A stretch of DNA of 51,341 nucleotides, from positions 1 through 51,341 of the forward strand of contig NZ_NFKR01000019.1 of assembly GCF_002160495.1 (NCBI RefSeq), written 5' to 3'. Shown here piece after piece: positions 42,565-51,341 of this stretch (position 1 is its first letter; each line of letters starts with the position of its first letter). The translations under genes were made by a program, and so were the position numbers. The stretch is from Erysipelatoclostridium sp. An173 (GTDB taxonomy: Bacteria > Bacillota_I > Bacilli_A > Erysipelotrichales > Coprobacillaceae). The notes below the pieces were generated by a model. It was given only the letters and a program-made list of their open reading frames with translations. It was not told the origin of the DNA and searched no databases.

Positions 42565-43245
42565 TTATAAATCACAAATTCCTTTATTCTCACCATAGAT
42601 TGCATACCAGTCATTATTAAAATCTGCTACTGCTTTTTCAATGTTTGGATTCTTGAAGATTTGATTTAATACAGCTACTGGTGCTGTTATTGCATGTGAG
42701 CCACTATTAAGGGCATCTCGAACTTGTTGTACCCCTTTAAAGCTTGCTGCTAATATTTTACAATCATATCCATCTACTTCAATTCTTGATGATAATTCAT
42801 GGATCAATTCAAATGGATCACTTCCTAGATTACCGATACGATTTACATATGGAGCAATATAATCAGCTCCGGCTTCTAATGCCATATAGGCTTGCATTAA
42901 ATCATAAACAGCTGTCGCCGTTACATTCATGCCACGATTTTTTAATTCTTTAATAGCTTTAATTCCTTCATATGAAACTGGTACTTTAATATATACTAAA
43001 TCATCGATTTCCTTTACAATTCGTTTAGCTTCTTTAACCATAGTTTCACAATCCAAACCAGTTACCTGGATATGCAAACTGTTTTCCATTCCAATCATTT
43101 CTCTGATTTTACGCATATGATCAAAGAAATTTTCAGGATTAGTTGCTTTTACTATTGAAGGATTACTAGTAACCCCCATAATTGGTAAATACTCTACTGC
43201 TTCTTTAATTTCATTTAAATCTACTGTATCAATTATAAATTCCAT
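42565..43245 (-). CDS. Fructose-6-phosphate aldolase-like transaldolase
   Basis: A 226-residue class I aldolase with the Schiff-base lysine at 87 (DDLVYIKVPVS). The N-terminal MEFIIDTVDLNEIKEA...GVTSNPSIV pattern is that of the FSA/TalC family. Gln60 (HIQVTG) is the residue that marks FSA-type aldolases rather than true transaldolases. It would split or form dihydroxyacetone- or hydroxyacetone-type bonds with glyceraldehyde-3-phosphate. It lies nine bases after the activase gene and ends the operon. The actual substrate depends on the product of the glycyl radical enzyme. Confidence 0.88.
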   Translation of the reverse strand: MEFIIDTVDLNEIKEAVEYLPIMGVTSNPSIVKATNPENFFDHMRKIREMIGMENSLHIQVTGLDCETMVKEAKRIVKEIDDLVYIKVPVSYEGIKAIKELKNRGMNVTATAVYDLMQAYMALEAGADYIAPYVNRIGNLGSDPFELIHELSSRIEVDGYDCKILAASFKGVQQVRDALNSGSHAITAPVAVLNQIFKNPNIEKAVADFNNDWYAIYGENKGICDL

Positions 43246-43254
43246 AACTATCTC

Positions 43255-44169
43255 CTATTCTTTAATTATATTTTTTAATCCATTTTGATTAACTAGCTGA
43301 TAAAAATGTTCCATTTGTTCATTATTAAACATTTTTAATTTACTATCTAATGTATATTGCTCATTTATTAATTCATATTTAGACGCTGCTAGTGGATTAT
43401 AATTTAATAATTCATATTTAACATCTGGATATATATTTACTAAAAACTGCACAATTTGACTAATATTACTATCTGTTGCCGTCATTGATGGTATCAATGG
43501 TGTTCTAATAATTACTTTATCTTTATAAGGACTCGTTAAAACATAAGTAATATTTTCTTTAATCAGTTTTGGTAAAACACCTGTATATTGTTGATGCAAC
43601 TTTTCATCAAATAACTTTAGATCAATATATATTAAGTCTAAATACGGTAAAATACTTTTAATTAAATCTAAAGATGCATACATAGTCGTTTCAATTGCCG
43701 TATGAATTTTTTCATCTTTACAACGTTTCAATATTTCTAATAAAAACGCCCCTTGTAATAATGGTTCACCTCCAGAAAAAGTAACCCCACCATCATCACG
43801 ATAAAAAACCTGATCATCTTTAATTTTTTCAATTAAAGTTTCAACATCATATTCAATACTATCATAACGAATCGCCCCACTAGGACAAGCATCAATTAAA
43901 TTGTCAAAACTTCCTATATAATCATAATTAAAATATGGTCGTTGCTTTAAATATTCTATTTGACCAGGTTTACTAAATTCAAGGCATCTTTGACAATGAA
44001 TACAATCATTTTTAAAATATAGCGGTTGTCTTTTAGGTGATAATCCTTCGGGATTTTGACACCATTTACATCTAAGAGGACATCCTTTAAAAAATATCGT
44101 TGTTCTAAGTCCAGTACCATCATGAACCGCAAACCTTTTAATATCAAACACTAATGCTTTAGATGTCAC
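43255..44169 (-). CDS. Glycyl radical enzyme activase (radical SAM)
   Basis: This 304-residue enzyme makes the glycyl radical in its partner by reductive cleavage of S-adenosylmethionine. The radical SAM cluster motif is C30-PLR-C34-KW-C37 after FDIKRFAVHDGTGLRTTIFFKG. A ferredoxin-like insert with extra Cys (CIHCQRC...ACPSGAI) follows, as in activases of glycerol dehydratase-type and PflC-type enzymes. The GTG at 44169 is chosen: AAAGGA lies nine bases before it and it overlaps the stop codon of the glycyl radical gene. The longer open frame upstream is inside that gene. Confidence 0.9.
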   Translation of the reverse strand: MTSKALVFDIKRFAVHDGTGLRTTIFFKGCPLRCKWCQNPEGLSPKRQPLYFKNDCIHCQRCLEFSKPGQIEYLKQRPYFNYDYIGSFDNLIDACPSGAIRYDSIEYDVETLIEKIKDDQVFYRDDGGVTFSGGEPLLQGAFLLEILKRCKDEKIHTAIETTMYASLDLIKSILPYLDLIYIDLKLFDEKLHQQYTGVLPKLIKENITYVLTSPYKDKVIIRTPLIPSMTATDSNISQIVQFLVNIYPDVKYELLNYNPLAASKYELINEQYTLDSKLKMFNNEQMEHFYQLVNQNGLKNIIKE

Positions 44170-46513
44170 TATAAGTCGTCCTTTCAATAATTTCATTTTG
44201 TAATTTATCGGCTAACTCAACAAAATATGCAGTATATCCAGCAACCCGAATCGTTAAAGAACGATGTCTTTCAGGATGAATTTTAGCATCTAATAAATCT
44301 TCACGATTAACGACATTAAATTGAATATGAGGTACTTTTAAATCAACAAATGCCCGCAAGAAGTTTTCAAATTTTTGCATTCCAGTTTTAGTAGCAAAAA
44401 ATTCTGGTAAAAACTTCATATTCAAAAGACCACCATTTGTAGTATATGAGTTTTTCATCCGTGATACTGATTTTAATACTGCTGTTGGCCCCGCTAAATC
44501 GCGACCATAAACCGGTGACATCCCACCATCAGCTAAAGGTGTCAAAGCATTTCTACCATCTGGTGATGCCCCAAGATTTTCTCCCATTGGTACATGGGCA
44601 GAAACAGTATACATACCAGTATGATATAGACCACCTCGATAATTAGTATAGTCATTCATTCGACTTCTAAAATATCCAGCCCACTTACTACCTAATTCAT
44701 CAACCCATTTAACATCATTTCCATACTTAGGAACTTTACGCAATAGCATTGTTTGAATAATTTCATAACCTTTAAAGTCAGCTTGTAAAGCTTCTAGTAA
44801 CTGAGATCTTGAAATCATTTTTTTATCATAAACTAATTGTTTTATAGCGGCTAATGAATCAGCTAAATTGGCAACTTGAATCATTTGAATACCTGATAAA
44901 TTATATTTAGCACCGCCTCTTGTAACATCAATACCATTTTCTAAACAATCATCGATTACAGTAGATAAAAAGGCTGTTGGTAAACATTCTTGATGAATTC
45001 TTTCAACTACTTCTTCAGCTTTCATCATTTCATCAATAAAATAATCAATTTGTTTTTTAAATGCTGCTTCTAATTCTTCAAAATTATTATATGTTTCTAA
45101 ACTGCCTAAATCCAAACCAATTTGTTTTCCGCTAAGCAAACACTTACCATGATTTAATGTCAATTCTAATGCTTTATTCAAATTAAACATCGCTGCATCT
45201 GACCAGCCTAAATTATTACCATGGGTTGTTAGTTCTACACATCCAACAATAGCATAGTTACGAGCGTCTTTTTCTTCAATTTTTAAATCATTGATCATCG
45301 CTGGAATAATTGCTTCATCATTGAAAAACTGTGGCATGCCACTACCTTTAGCGACTACTTTAATTGCTTCTTGCATTAATTCATGTGATGTATTTTTGTT
45401 TAATCGCACTGATAAATTAGGTTGTGGTAATCCTAGATGATATTGTGCTTTTAAACATAACAATGATAATTCATTGTACGTATCATTATCATCTTCATCT
45501 TGTCCCCCAATAGCTACATTAAAACCAATTGGAAAACCGGCAAAATATTTAGCACTGTTTTGATTTCTTAAATAGACAATCTGATTAAATTTTAACCATA
45601 AGCATTCTAATATTTCTAAAGCCTGTTGTTTAGTAATTATATTATTAGTAATATCATGATAATAATATGGATATAAATATTGATCAATTCGTCCTGGTGA
45701 AAACGAAGAAGCATTAGATTCCATATGCAAGATTACAAATAAAAACCATAGTGACTGAATAGCTTCATGAAAAGTCTCGGGCGGTCTTTTAGCTAAGTTA
45801 TAACAATTATTAGCAACCTGCTTTAATGATTCTTGATATTTAAAATCAACATCATCAATAATCTCCATAATGTAATCATGATAGCGAATCATAAAATTAC
45901 AAGCGCCCTGTAAGACTAGAATAGTACATTGGTAAAATTCTTGATGTTCTTTACAACAAGTTTTCAATTTTTCTTGGGCTTTTTCCATCAAACCCTGAGG
46001 TCCTAAACGTAGCCATAAAGCAGTATCAGGACAAATATGACCTTGAGCATGATCTTTTTGATTAATTTTTACAACTTTACTAATTGCATTAATTTTATCA
46101 CCATACTCTTGTTTAATTTTATCTTCCAATGATTTACCTTGCCAATAAGGATAAATTTTTTCTTTAAATTCTTTAATATCTTCATCATTAACTAAAAATT
46201 TATCCTGAGGTCTAGTTGGTAAAGTTTCAAACTCTTTTACTACCCAGGAACTACCACTTTCAGGAAATACAACTCCCGCTCTAACTCCTTTAGTTCGATT
46301 CCCTACAATTAGTTCTTCTGGTTCTACTGCTATTTCCATTTGTTCTAAAGCTGCTTTTAAAGATAATGCTCTTTTTTTGCTAATTGATAACCCTTCGTTT
46401 TCTTGATAAACCTTTGTAATAATTCTAGCTTGTTCAATCGAAGCATAACGCGGTGCCTTTAGCATCTTATCTTTTAAAATTCCAATTCTTTCACTTTGGT
46501 ACAAATCATCCAT
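44159..46513 (-). CDS. Glycyl radical enzyme (PflD/PflF-like, not classical PFL)
   Basis: The 784-residue protein has the active-site Cys near 423 in VGCVELTTHG and the radical-bearing Gly near 757 in RVAGYTAYFVELADKLQNEI. The single Cys followed by Val-Glu is the dehydratase-type signature; classical pyruvate formate-lyase has two adjacent Cys. Other family blocks are SGMPQFFNDEAIIPAM, RGGAKYNLSGIQMIQVANLADSL and NLGASPDGR. E. coli PflD/YbiW-type enzymes sit with an activase and an FSA-type aldolase, as here. The substrate is unproven. The gene is expressed from a region with three copies of a 13-bp word, probably bound by the upstream DeoR protein. Confidence 0.92.
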   Translation of the reverse strand: MDDLYQSERIGILKDKMLKAPRYASIEQARIITKVYQENEGLSISKKRALSLKAALEQMEIAVEPEELIVGNRTKGVRAGVVFPESGSSWVVKEFETLPTRPQDKFLVNDEDIKEFKEKIYPYWQGKSLEDKIKQEYGDKINAISKVVKINQKDHAQGHICPDTALWLRLGPQGLMEKAQEKLKTCCKEHQEFYQCTILVLQGACNFMIRYHDYIMEIIDDVDFKYQESLKQVANNCYNLAKRPPETFHEAIQSLWFLFVILHMESNASSFSPGRIDQYLYPYYYHDITNNIITKQQALEILECLWLKFNQIVYLRNQNSAKYFAGFPIGFNVAIGGQDEDDNDTYNELSLLCLKAQYHLGLPQPNLSVRLNKNTSHELMQEAIKVVAKGSGMPQFFNDEAIIPAMINDLKIEEKDARNYAIVGCVELTTHGNNLGWSDAAMFNLNKALELTLNHGKCLLSGKQIGLDLGSLETYNNFEELEAAFKKQIDYFIDEMMKAEEVVERIHQECLPTAFLSTVIDDCLENGIDVTRGGAKYNLSGIQMIQVANLADSLAAIKQLVYDKKMISRSQLLEALQADFKGYEIIQTMLLRKVPKYGNDVKWVDELGSKWAGYFRSRMNDYTNYRGGLYHTGMYTVSAHVPMGENLGASPDGRNALTPLADGGMSPVYGRDLAGPTAVLKSVSRMKNSYTTNGGLLNMKFLPEFFATKTGMQKFENFLRAFVDLKVPHIQFNVVNREDLLDAKIHPERHRSLTIRVAGYTAYFVELADKLQNEIIERTTYSDI

Positions 46514-46531
46514 CTAAGAAACCCCCTTTTT

Positions 46532-46595
46532 ATTGTTTTTTATTGATTACATCTTAATTATACATTGTTTTTTATTAAAATAAATAAAAAACAAT
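46532..46595. promoter_or_regulatory. Triple 13-bp operator-like repeat at the glycyl radical operon promoter
   Basis: ATTGTTTTTTATT occurs at 46532-46544 and 46564-46576, and inverted at 46583-46595. The two direct copies are 32 bp apart, about three helical turns. The minus-strand -10 box TATAAT (46557-46562) lies between copies 1 and 2. Copies 2 and 3 cover the -35 and spacer region. Confidence 0.7.
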
Positions 46596-46613
46596 AAATT
46601 TCACTAATTTTTC

Positions 46614-46646
46614 AATAAAAAAAAGAAATCATCGCTAAATGATTTC
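46614..46646 (-). terminator. Terminator of the deoR-type gene
   Basis: On the minus strand GAAATCAT/ATGATTTC with a six-base loop is followed by eight Ts. The stop codon lies in the loop. Confidence 0.8.
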
Positions 46647-47396
46647 AATTCCAATATCTTTTAATTTATTTTCTATTCTACTATCTAGTCCACCTTCGCA
46701 AATATAACCACTAAAATCACTAATATCACCAAACAAATAATTACCATCTAATTCAAACTTAATCGTTTCACCTGCCATATAACATTTTCGACTGGCATTA
46801 AGAACTTCTTTTTTTGTTAAACCATCATTAATATCATAAGTAGCTACTTTATTATTAAAAACATCAATTCCAACTACCCCTAAAAAAGAAAGATCAAACT
46901 TATATTTCTTTATTTGTTCAATAGTAATAGCACCAATAAATCCATCACGAGCCCGATTCAATTCACCACCAATAAAAATCAAATTAGTATTACAATCACG
47001 GGTAAAAATTTCCATAATATCAATCATATTTGTAACAACAGTTATTTTTAAATTGCGCTGATAAATTAATTTAGCGATTTCTAAAGTAACTGTAGAAATA
47101 TCTAAAAAAATCATCATCCCTGGTTTAATTAACTCAATCGCTTTTAAAGCAATTGCCTTTTTTTCTTCTACCCGAACATCTCGTCGTTGACTTACATTTA
47201 CTGTATGTAAATTTGAACGCATGCAGGTTGCCCCACCATGAATTCTTTTTAATTTATTGGCTTTTTCTAAAATATTTAAATCTTTTCTAATACAGTCTTC
47301 AGTAACATTAAAATCTTTACTTAAATCTTTTACTCTAACTTGACCTTCTAAATTCAATCGAGCCAAAATTTGATTATGTCTTTCTTGTTGTAGCAT
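46635..47396 (-). CDS. DeoR family transcriptional regulator
   Basis: A 253-residue sugar-phosphate-responsive repressor type. N-terminal HTH: RHNQILARLNLEGQVRVKDLSKDFNVTEDCIRKDLNILEKANKLKRIHGGA. The effector domain follows with FLDISTVTLEIAKLI, VVTNMIDIM and FIGGELN. GFIGAITIEQIKKYKFDLSFLGVVGID completes it. It lies directly upstream of the glycyl radical operon on the same strand but is closed by its own terminator. Local regulation of that operon is the natural inference. The effector may be the phosphorylated sugar used by the operon. Confidence 0.92.
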   Translation of the reverse strand: MLQQERHNQILARLNLEGQVRVKDLSKDFNVTEDCIRKDLNILEKANKLKRIHGGATCMRSNLHTVNVSQRRDVRVEEKKAIALKAIELIKPGMMIFLDISTVTLEIAKLIYQRNLKITVVTNMIDIMEIFTRDCNTNLIFIGGELNRARDGFIGAITIEQIKKYKFDLSFLGVVGIDVFNNKVATYDINDGLTKKEVLNASRKCYMAGETIKFELDGNYLFGDISDFSGYICEGGLDSRIENKLKDIGIEII

Positions 47397-49823: not shown

Positions 49824-51239
49824 TTACTCAAATGCCTCGTTTTGACTATTTTTAATATCATCAACACATAATTTAGTAGTTCCATCTAATAAATATGAAC
49901 TTACTTCTTTAATACAATAAAACTCTGGTAAAAATTCCGCTGGAATAAATGATTTCAACTTGTTTTTTATTTCATCCATATCTGGTGTCATTGGTGAAAA
50001 CAAAGCTACTGCTTCTGGTCCTACAGCACAAATAGTAGGTAAAAGGGCTTTAGTTACTAATTCTAAAACGCCCGGTTCACTCCATGCCAGTTTTTGAATA
50101 TCATCAGAAAATTGCATTCTACGCATAAAATATCTTATTTCACCAGCAATACCGTTTTTTCCAGTAATTAAATTACCATTAGAGATAATCCCTTGACCAC
50201 CAACACCATAGCCAAATGGTTGTGAATGGAAAACAATATTTTTATATTCAGGATGTTCCAAAGCAAAACCAACAACAGTTGCATTAGCATTATTATAAGT
50301 AAACACCTCAATACCATATTTCTTTTCAAAATCATTTTTTAAATCAATGTTTTTACCATCAATTGAGCTTTTTAACTGATTATCTCCTCTAACTATCCCC
50401 GGTATAGCAATTCCAATTACATCAATATATGAATGTTTCAATAAAACTGTATCAATAATATCGTATAAATCATAAACATTCATCGTTGGTTTAATTATCA
50501 TATTACTATCAATTATTTCACACTTATCATTTAAACGATAATAAATTCTTGTTTGCGCTTGATCAGTAGAAATGACAATCGATAAAATTCTTTTTTCATA
50601 TTGAATACAATGACTTTTTTCTTTTTTATCTTCAGTTTCCGCTTTTCTACTATAATATTTTTCAACCTCGCTACTTACAAACTTCAACGCTTCTAAAGCA
50701 TCATAGCTTGCAAAGATTGATGTTGGAATTTGTAGTACTAATTTATCTGATAAACTGTCTTGTAATCGTTGTAACATATAACCGATTTGCGGTGCAATCA
50801 ATACTACATCATATTTATCTACTTCTTCATAAATATTCAAATATGATACGGCATCAAATTGATAATCTAAATTCATCATACCAGCAATTGAATTTAAATT
50901 TTCAGCAAACATTGATGTTGTTAAACCGGCAGTACAAGATAAAAGAACTTTTATTGTTTTTTCATTTTTTAATGATAATAAAGTTCCAACCATTTCATCA
51001 TATAATTGTTTAGCGTGTTCTTCATCTTTTAATTCAAAATGTAAGTAGAATTTAACCGAATCATCTTTTTTAGATAATATTTTAAATTCAACTATTAGGC
51101 TTTCTTCAATCTTGATAAAATTAATCTTAGCTTCACCATATTCAGTTTTTAACTTAATAGTTTCATCACTAACAACTTCAACTTGATAATCATCGCTGTC
51201 ATGTTCTTTGATCCATGTTTTAAAGTCAAAATTGGTACT
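49824..51239 (-). pseudogene. PTS EIIB domain fused to a ROK-like domain, 5' end cut by an IS
   Basis: The open frame continues upstream of the internal ATG at 50993 to 51239, where the IS3-type end begins, so 471 residues remain and the true start is lost. The first ~82 are an unrecognised beta-rich domain (VEVVSDETIKLKTEYGEAKI). A lactose/cellobiose-type EIIB domain follows, with P-loop Cys102 in LLSCTAGLTTSMFAENL. A ROK-fold domain is last (GIAIPGIVRG, FGYGVGGQGIISNGNLITG, NGIAGEI). The ROK catalytic Asp (NDANA) is Asn here (YNNANATVVG). The N-terminal ATP loop and the zinc CxCGxxGC motif are absent. This suggests a sugar- or phosphorylation-sensing protein, not a kinase. A shortened product from the ATG at 50993 is possible. 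Confidence 0.75.
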
Positions 51240-51240
51240 A

Positions 51241-51341
51241 TGTCAAGATTTCGGACTACATAAATATGAGAAATTTAATTAATTGTTACTGATTAGATAG
51301 TTGTATTCATATTCATTTGGTGATTTGAAATCACAATGTGA
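51241..51341 (-). mobile_element. IS3-family element, 3' end
   Basis: The terminal repeat begins TGTCAAGATTTCGGACTACA at 51241, directly after the broken EIIB-ROK frame. It starts with the TGT end common in IS3-group elements. The transposase end follows. The rest lies outside the window, so the other inverted repeat and the target duplication cannot be checked. Confidence 0.75.
51279..51341 (-). CDS. IS3-family transposase, C-terminal end (partial)
   Basis: The last 20 codons of a minus-strand frame that enters from the right window edge: SHCDFKSPNEYEYNYLISNN and stop. The SPNEYEY segment is the typical end of IS3/IS150-type integrase-domain transposases (SPxEYR-like). The stop codon is 38 bp from the IS end. 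Confidence 0.7.
   Translation of the reverse strand, partial: SHCDFKSPNEYEYNYLISNN

Follow-up and report, generated by a model that had tools for sequence, protein, structure and literature searches.

The window, by which we mean the whole 51,341-nucleotide stretch of Erysipelatoclostridium sp. An173 DNA that was analysed, carries a gene that we read, with modest confidence, as belonging to a family of soluble signalling proteins, restricted to one lineage and coupled to the PTS, with a built-in switch resembling that between Mlc and EIIB. The encoded protein consists of an unnamed N-terminal domain, a cellobiose/chitobiose-type EIIB domain and a ROK-fold core, in that order. Our reading rests on domain content, predicted folds, conservation, motif losses, the existence of split gene pairs and purifying selection. 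The original prediction from this DNA had proposed a PTS-coupled sensor, and for the conserved fusion this is still the best reading, because the protein is neither a transporter component (from gene context) nor a ROK kinase (from motifs). We therefore class the fusion under PTS-coupled ROK regulation and not as a ROK kinase or a ROK repressor, since the defining features of both are missing. A literature search confined to open access found no paper on EIIB-ROK fusions, and in the open-access literature searched the architecture appears to be undescribed.

Pfam, PDB sequence searches and AlphaFold2 folds agree on the two recognisable domains, and we conclude from this agreement that both are present in the window protein. 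PTS_IIB (PF02302) matched residues 97-173 (E 5.4e-9, 37 bits against a curated cut-off of 23.6), and ROK (PF00480) matched residues 250-368 (E 3.4e-13, 50.2 bits against a curated cut-off of 22.9). PDB sequence searches with the window protein returned IIB-cellobiose/chitobiose and ROK kinases. The AlphaFold2 model of its 468 residues, for which an alignment of 45 relatives served as input, reached a mean pLDDT of 88 and a pTM of 0.82. Its EIIB part matched 2wy2 (Z 18.8, 1.1 Å, 103 residues) and its ROK part matched 2hoe (Z 21.7, 2.8 Å, 244 residues). An EIIB P-loop Cys followed by a ROK fold in one frame, as first proposed from the letters, is thus borne out by Pfam scores above the cut-offs and by the predicted folds. 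The features of the gene are collected in Table 1.

Table 1. Coordinates in the window of the fusion gene, its domains and key codons, and the adjoining mobile element
Feature	Position	Strand	Basis or remark
EIIB-ROK fusion gene, 5' end lost to IS3-family element	49824..51232	-	stop codon included
IS3-family element end: transposase C-terminus (..HCDFKSPNEYEYNYLISNN, then stop) and terminal sequence	51233..51341	-	repeats on contigs
Unnamed N-terminal domain, alpha-beta5-alpha; Glu48 and His64 (F-Y-L-H-F) invariant	50961..51230	-	model, alignment
EIIB domain, lactose/cellobiose/chitobiose type	50634..50957	-	Pfam, PDB sequence search, fold match
P-loop Cys99 codon (LLSCTAGLTTS)	50934..50936	-	Cys in 45/45 fusions
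His-Cys pair in EIIB-ROK linker	50607..50612	-	linker comparison
ROK-fold core without DxGxT, zinc CxCGxxGC or HTH	49839..50594	-	Pfam, fold match, motif counts
Asn314 codon at ROK catalytic Asp position (YNNANAT)	50289..50291	-	alignment
Glu364 codon (GE motif; equivalent of sugar-binding E566 of GNE)	50139..50141	-	invariant in 45/45

The ROK core departs from its relatives at the sites that define them. The reference residues of the GNE kinase are N516, D517, E566, H569 and E588, and the ROK zinc motif reads GHx9-11CxCGx2G(C/H)xE (PMC2742894). Neither the DxGxT ATP-binding motif nor the CxCGxxGC zinc motif occurs in any of the 45 fusions (0/45 each), and the absence of a canonical zinc Cys cluster, noticed at the outset in the window gene, is therefore a property of the whole set. 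The sugar-site residues Asn313 and Glu364 are kept in 45/45, and the His of the sugar and zinc site is replaced by Tyr, Phe or Leu in all 45. The position equivalent to E588 of GNE aligns ambiguously because the EIIB-ROK family is without about 40 residues there. The idea of a ROK sugar kinase that still works with ATP and is fused to EIIB could draw on a ROK fold that is closest to the NagK/NanK kinases and on the Asp that is kept in clade B (below), but the loss of the ATP and zinc motifs throughout the family largely refutes it, and we consider such a kinase extremely improbable.

In the ROK tree, the window gene and 13 relatives form clade A (SH-aLRT 100), and the rest make up clade B. Clade A is found in 19 of the 43 family genomes and in 10 of 20 genera; a single one of these genomes has more than one copy. 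At the catalytic Asp position, Asn is common to all 14 members of clade A (codon 50291-50289 in the window), as had been read from the window gene, and is hence no error of the window genome; the same position in clade B is Asp in 29, Glu in one and Asn in one (n = 31). The losses of the ATP and zinc motifs include fusions that keep the catalytic Asp. The Asp loss is therefore real but is not what makes the fusion a non-kinase, and in giving it as the cause the original prediction overstated its part. Judged from the aligned sequences, the change from Asp to Asn is a later step, taken within one clade of a core that was already without the ATP motif. The linker between EIIB and ROK also separates the clades, the pattern [HC]-x(0-2)-C being present in 14/14 clade A members versus 1/31 of clade B. 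The clade A linker Cys usually occurs as a His-Cys pair, with several Cys in some members, and is possibly a metal or redox site.

The invariance of the P-loop Cys, Asn313 and Glu364 in a core whose ATP motif is gone could also be expected of a PTS-driven cytosolic phosphotransferase, in which the phosphate of the EIIB Cys would pass to a sugar in the ROK cleft in place of ATP. Against such an enzyme, clade A has Asn as its catalytic base, no fusion keeps the sugar-site His, and HTH proteins are found among the partners encoded by the split pairs described below; we regard it as very unlikely.

The window copy itself is interrupted. Read on the minus strand, its frame stays open between 51239 and the stop codon at 49824, and the interval first assigned to it, 49824-51239, holds as an open frame, but its last 7 bp (51233-51239) belong to a mobile element. 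The terminal 109 bases of the window (51233-51341) are repeated on contigs C89, C84 and C47, one copy being 91% identical; they translate as an IS3-type transposase C-terminus followed by the end of the element, so that the window contig terminates inside an IS3-family element. Because the end of the element starts there, the gene is interrupted at 51232/51233 and has not merely run off the contig. Comparison with intact relatives indicates that the cut removed only about 8-9 residues: the start of intact clade A members lies about that far ahead of the cut, for instance MDTKKKELDFDFQSWI versus FDFKTWI in the window. No in-frame ATG, GTG or TTG lies upstream of 50993 in the window frame; this codon is that of residue 80, within the helix connecting the N-terminal domain and EIIB.

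It is likely that the IS3-family insertion took the start of the window copy and disabled it, so that the full protein is no longer made. The gene could then be dead, and the features seen in it, the Asn included, could be those of a decaying remnant. The element end within the frame and the lack of a start codon before codon 80 favour a dead copy, and they hold for this copy in this assembly. Yet the remaining frame is still open, the Asn is shared across clade A, and the family is under purifying selection; the last two observations argue that neither the fusion architecture nor the Asn is a product of decay, and our degree of belief in a disabled copy does not extend to them. For pairs of clade A genes, dN/dS (Nei-Gojobori) was mostly 0.05-0.2 in all three domains, in a set where some dS values approach saturation and few changes separate the closest pair, and purifying selection acts on each of the three domains. 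The gene nearest to the window copy (L021, 80% identical), from a metagenome assembly, has a frame break of its own in the N-terminal domain (L021:5975-6110). Elsewhere in the window, positions 42565-47396 encode a glycyl radical enzyme (PFL-like), a radical SAM activase, a transaldolase/FSA-type aldolase and a DeoR regulator, which looks like an ordinary anaerobic sugar or polyol cluster.

The N-terminal domain was called unrecognised from the start, and indeed no Pfam family matched it above its cut-off. Pfam TriTu matched 6 of 48 members, with a best E of 0.008. Modelled alone, the domain folds as a helix, five strands and a helix (pLDDT 84.5, pTM 0.71), and two of its residues, Glu48 and His64, are kept in 45/45 fusions. 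Foldseek returned no match at E <= 0.001. The best of the weaker fold matches was 7ui9 (Z 8.5, 3.6 Å over 97), followed by the TriTu immunity protein 7zhm (Z 8.2, 2.5 Å over 79) and DR_1245 4h5b (Z 7.0, 3.0 Å over 90); we assigned none of these as a known fold, since the resemblances lie in the range of what is possibly a mere common arrangement. A DNA-binding or PRD domain had been thought possible in the missing N-terminus. We reject such a hidden domain on the evidence of the intact homologues, which add only 8-9 residues and have the alpha-beta5-alpha fold with no HTH. By this model, the N-terminal domain is not an HTH; Pfam scans found no PRD in the fusion or its N-terminal domain, and neither Pfam nor the AlphaFold2 models revealed an N-terminal winged helix-turn-helix in the fusions. 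Among 296 genomes of the class, the domain alone was found in the same order only. We suggest that it may serve as an adaptor.

In the genomes sampled, the fusion is confined to one order. Members were matched in 37/37 Coprobacillaceae genomes, including the window genome; 30 of the 37 have a fusion-length match, and the other seven have split or stand-alone forms only. The fusion is often present in several copies per genome in Coprobacillaceae, and the window genome itself has, besides the window gene, three intact fusions as well as a split pair and stand-alone relatives. Part of a second family in this order, namely one genus and a few others, also gave matches. Among 392 genomes sampled across the phylum, no fusion was matched outside the order; one genome of another order in this sample gave a match to the ROK part only, which reads as an HTH-ROK-like protein. 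Named records with the family comprise Thomasclavelia, Massilimicrobiota, Stoquefichus, Kandleria and other Erysipelotrichaceae-labelled genomes.

At seven loci (L015 and L085-L090) the architecture is split, and a gene for the N-terminal domain plus EIIB (about 210 residues) directly adjoins, and often overlaps, a gene for a ROK-core protein (309-337 residues). The occurrence of separate EIIB and ROK genes in intact homologues had been named as grounds for rejecting the sensor; these grounds apply in part, as such genes do exist, in adjacent pairs and alongside the fusions. The P-loop Cys is kept in 7/7 of the N-domain+EIIB partners. All four split ROK partners scanned matched Pfam ROK (4/4); HTH_24 was above its cut-off in two of the four, and the others had a weak HTH match or none. 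Because the ROK partner carries an HTH in some pairs, the split pairs strengthen the functional link between EIIB and ROK. In the ROK tree, the split ROKs fall within the fusion family, in a topology whose deep forks are weak and whose long branches were flagged. L086_14218, a false match to the split-ROK pattern, was left out of the split set. A palindrome resembling a cre site, TGTAAACGTTTACA or a near variant of it, lies upstream of the split operon of N-EIIB and HTH-ROK genes in the window genome and one congener (L015:11654-11667 and L087:4656-4669). Its expected frequency is 0.01 per 20 kb, so that its occurrence is far above chance, and it counts as one observation because the two loci are orthologous. 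The palindrome suggests CcpA-type catabolite control of the split operon.

N-EIIB genes that stand alone are common, and nearby there is often a GH1 glycosidase, a calcineurin-like phosphoesterase or a regulator of the RpiR type. In an arrangement that recurs at L137, L139, L140, L144, L145, L147, L148, L152 and L153, the stand-alone gene is divergent from a conserved calcineurin-like phosphoesterase ('VISDLHGQFVLLQLLLE'), and in several of these loci an RpiR-type HTH gene comes next. The stand-alone proteins at L152:8498-9100 and L153:8946-9548 differ from the other members examined in carrying Ser at the position of the P-loop Cys. At L093:8148-11484, an N-EIIB gene is flanked on one side by genes for a canonical EIIB of 102 residues and a GH1 glycosidase and on the other by an RpiR-type gene; this is possibly a cellobiose-type operon with both forms of EIIB. 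Clade B fusion genes adjoin GH1 and HAD genes in some genomes, an association with sugar genes that covers a minority of the fusion loci and is a plain reading of the listed loci. Clade A fusion genes have no conserved neighbours in the loci compared, and thus no target is indicated; no shared operator was found upstream of them.

These neighbourhoods bear on whether the EIIB domain is an ordinary PTS subunit working for an EIIC of the cell, with the ROK core merely tuning it. The intact EIIB fold and P-loop would fit such a role, as would the window genome, which has 17 EIIC matches and one Lac/Cel EIIA, and the stand-alone N-EIIB gene in the apparent RpiR-EIIB-GH1 operon of L093. That operon, however, has its own canonical EIIB alongside; no EIIC stood out next to the fusions in the listed loci, whose neighbours were scanned in part; and several copies per genome together with HTH-ROK split partners point to regulation. 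We consider a plain transporter subunit unlikely. With its Lac/Cel EIIA, the window genome has a possible phosphate donor.

For the phosphorylation, ligand, partner and output of the fusion, we infer a scheme with three parts: an N-terminal adaptor, EIIB, and a repressor-type ROK core stripped of its HTH, ATP site and zinc site. The genome's Lac/Cel-type EIIA would phosphorylate the P-loop Cys of the fusion. Beta-glucoside-type sugars entering through the PTS would leave EIIB dephosphorylated and so alter how it touches the ROK core; this core may have kept the ability to bind a sugar or sugar phosphate. The ROK core could relay the signal by protein contact to DNA-binding partners, for which the HTH-ROK proteins of the split pairs or the RpiR-type regulators are candidates. 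The fusion would then contain within itself a switch like that of E. coli Mlc and EIIB(Glc). Against this scheme, the HTH-less fusion has no visible output domain besides the unnamed N-terminal domain, the surroundings of the clade A genes indicate no target, sugar genes adjoin a minority of the fusion loci, and the EIIB of the Mlc precedent is of another fold. A more specific proposal, which we put forward tentatively and hold to be somewhat short of an even bet, is a one-polypeptide PTS sensor with EIIB in cis with an enzymatically dead, HTH-less ROK, signalling in trans via partner repressors within a lineage-expanded sugar network of Coprobacillaceae, where clade A would have a second switch (the invariant linker Cys and the Asp-to-Asn change).

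If PTS-coupled signalling by this family is correct, the EIIB-ROK contact so far known from E. coli Mlc would have natural fusions and operon pairs, in a soluble form small enough for direct study. It would help to explain how uptake and regulation are coupled in PTS-rich gut Bacillota (Thomasclavelia, Massilimicrobiota, Stoquefichus and relatives), and a domain without a Pfam family would gain its first functional setting.

Each part of the fusion has known counterparts. With IIB-cellobiose and IIB-chitobiose (1iib, 1h9c and 2wy2; PF02302), it shares the fold of the whole domain (1.1-1.5 Å over 103-106 residues) and the P-loop Cys, but it lies outside a transporter operon at most loci and is joined to a new N-terminal domain and a ROK core. 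With ROK sugar kinases and ROK repressors of the XylR/Mlc/NagC type (PF00480), it shares the fold and the PG, N-x-x-N, GxG and GE motifs, whereas DxGxT, the zinc motif and the HTH are missing, and clade A has Asn for Asp. Some PTS-regulated activators and antiterminators of the MtlR/LicR/BglG type carry EIIB-like domains that are phosphorylated by the PTS. These regulators depend on PRD and DNA- or RNA-binding domains; in contrast, no PRD or DNA/RNA-binding domain was found in the fusion. A further counterpart is MecR2 of Staphylococcus aureus, one variant of which has no HTH and acts on another repressor via protein contact (PMC3406092). This XylR-derived, ROK-family anti-repressor (4ija) resembles the ROK part of the fusion (Z 20.8, 3.1 Å, 237 residues) but is without an EIIB or a PTS link, and its targets differ. 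The EIIB(Glc) of the Mlc precedent has a different fold from the Cel/Chb-type EIIB. Mlc, a ROK repressor of E. coli, is sequestered by EIICB(Glc) when the latter is dephosphorylated (PMC3901232), and the Mlc-EIIB(Glc) complex is PDB entry 3bp8. There, EIIB is part of a membrane transporter and Mlc has an HTH and a zinc site, whereas in the fusion family EIIB is of the Cel/Chb type, on the same polypeptide or on an adjacent soluble protein, and the fused ROK is without an HTH or zinc motif. Common to both is the cooperation of a ROK-fold regulator with a PTS EIIB, and the signal, in the fusion as in Mlc, would be the phosphorylation state of EIIB.
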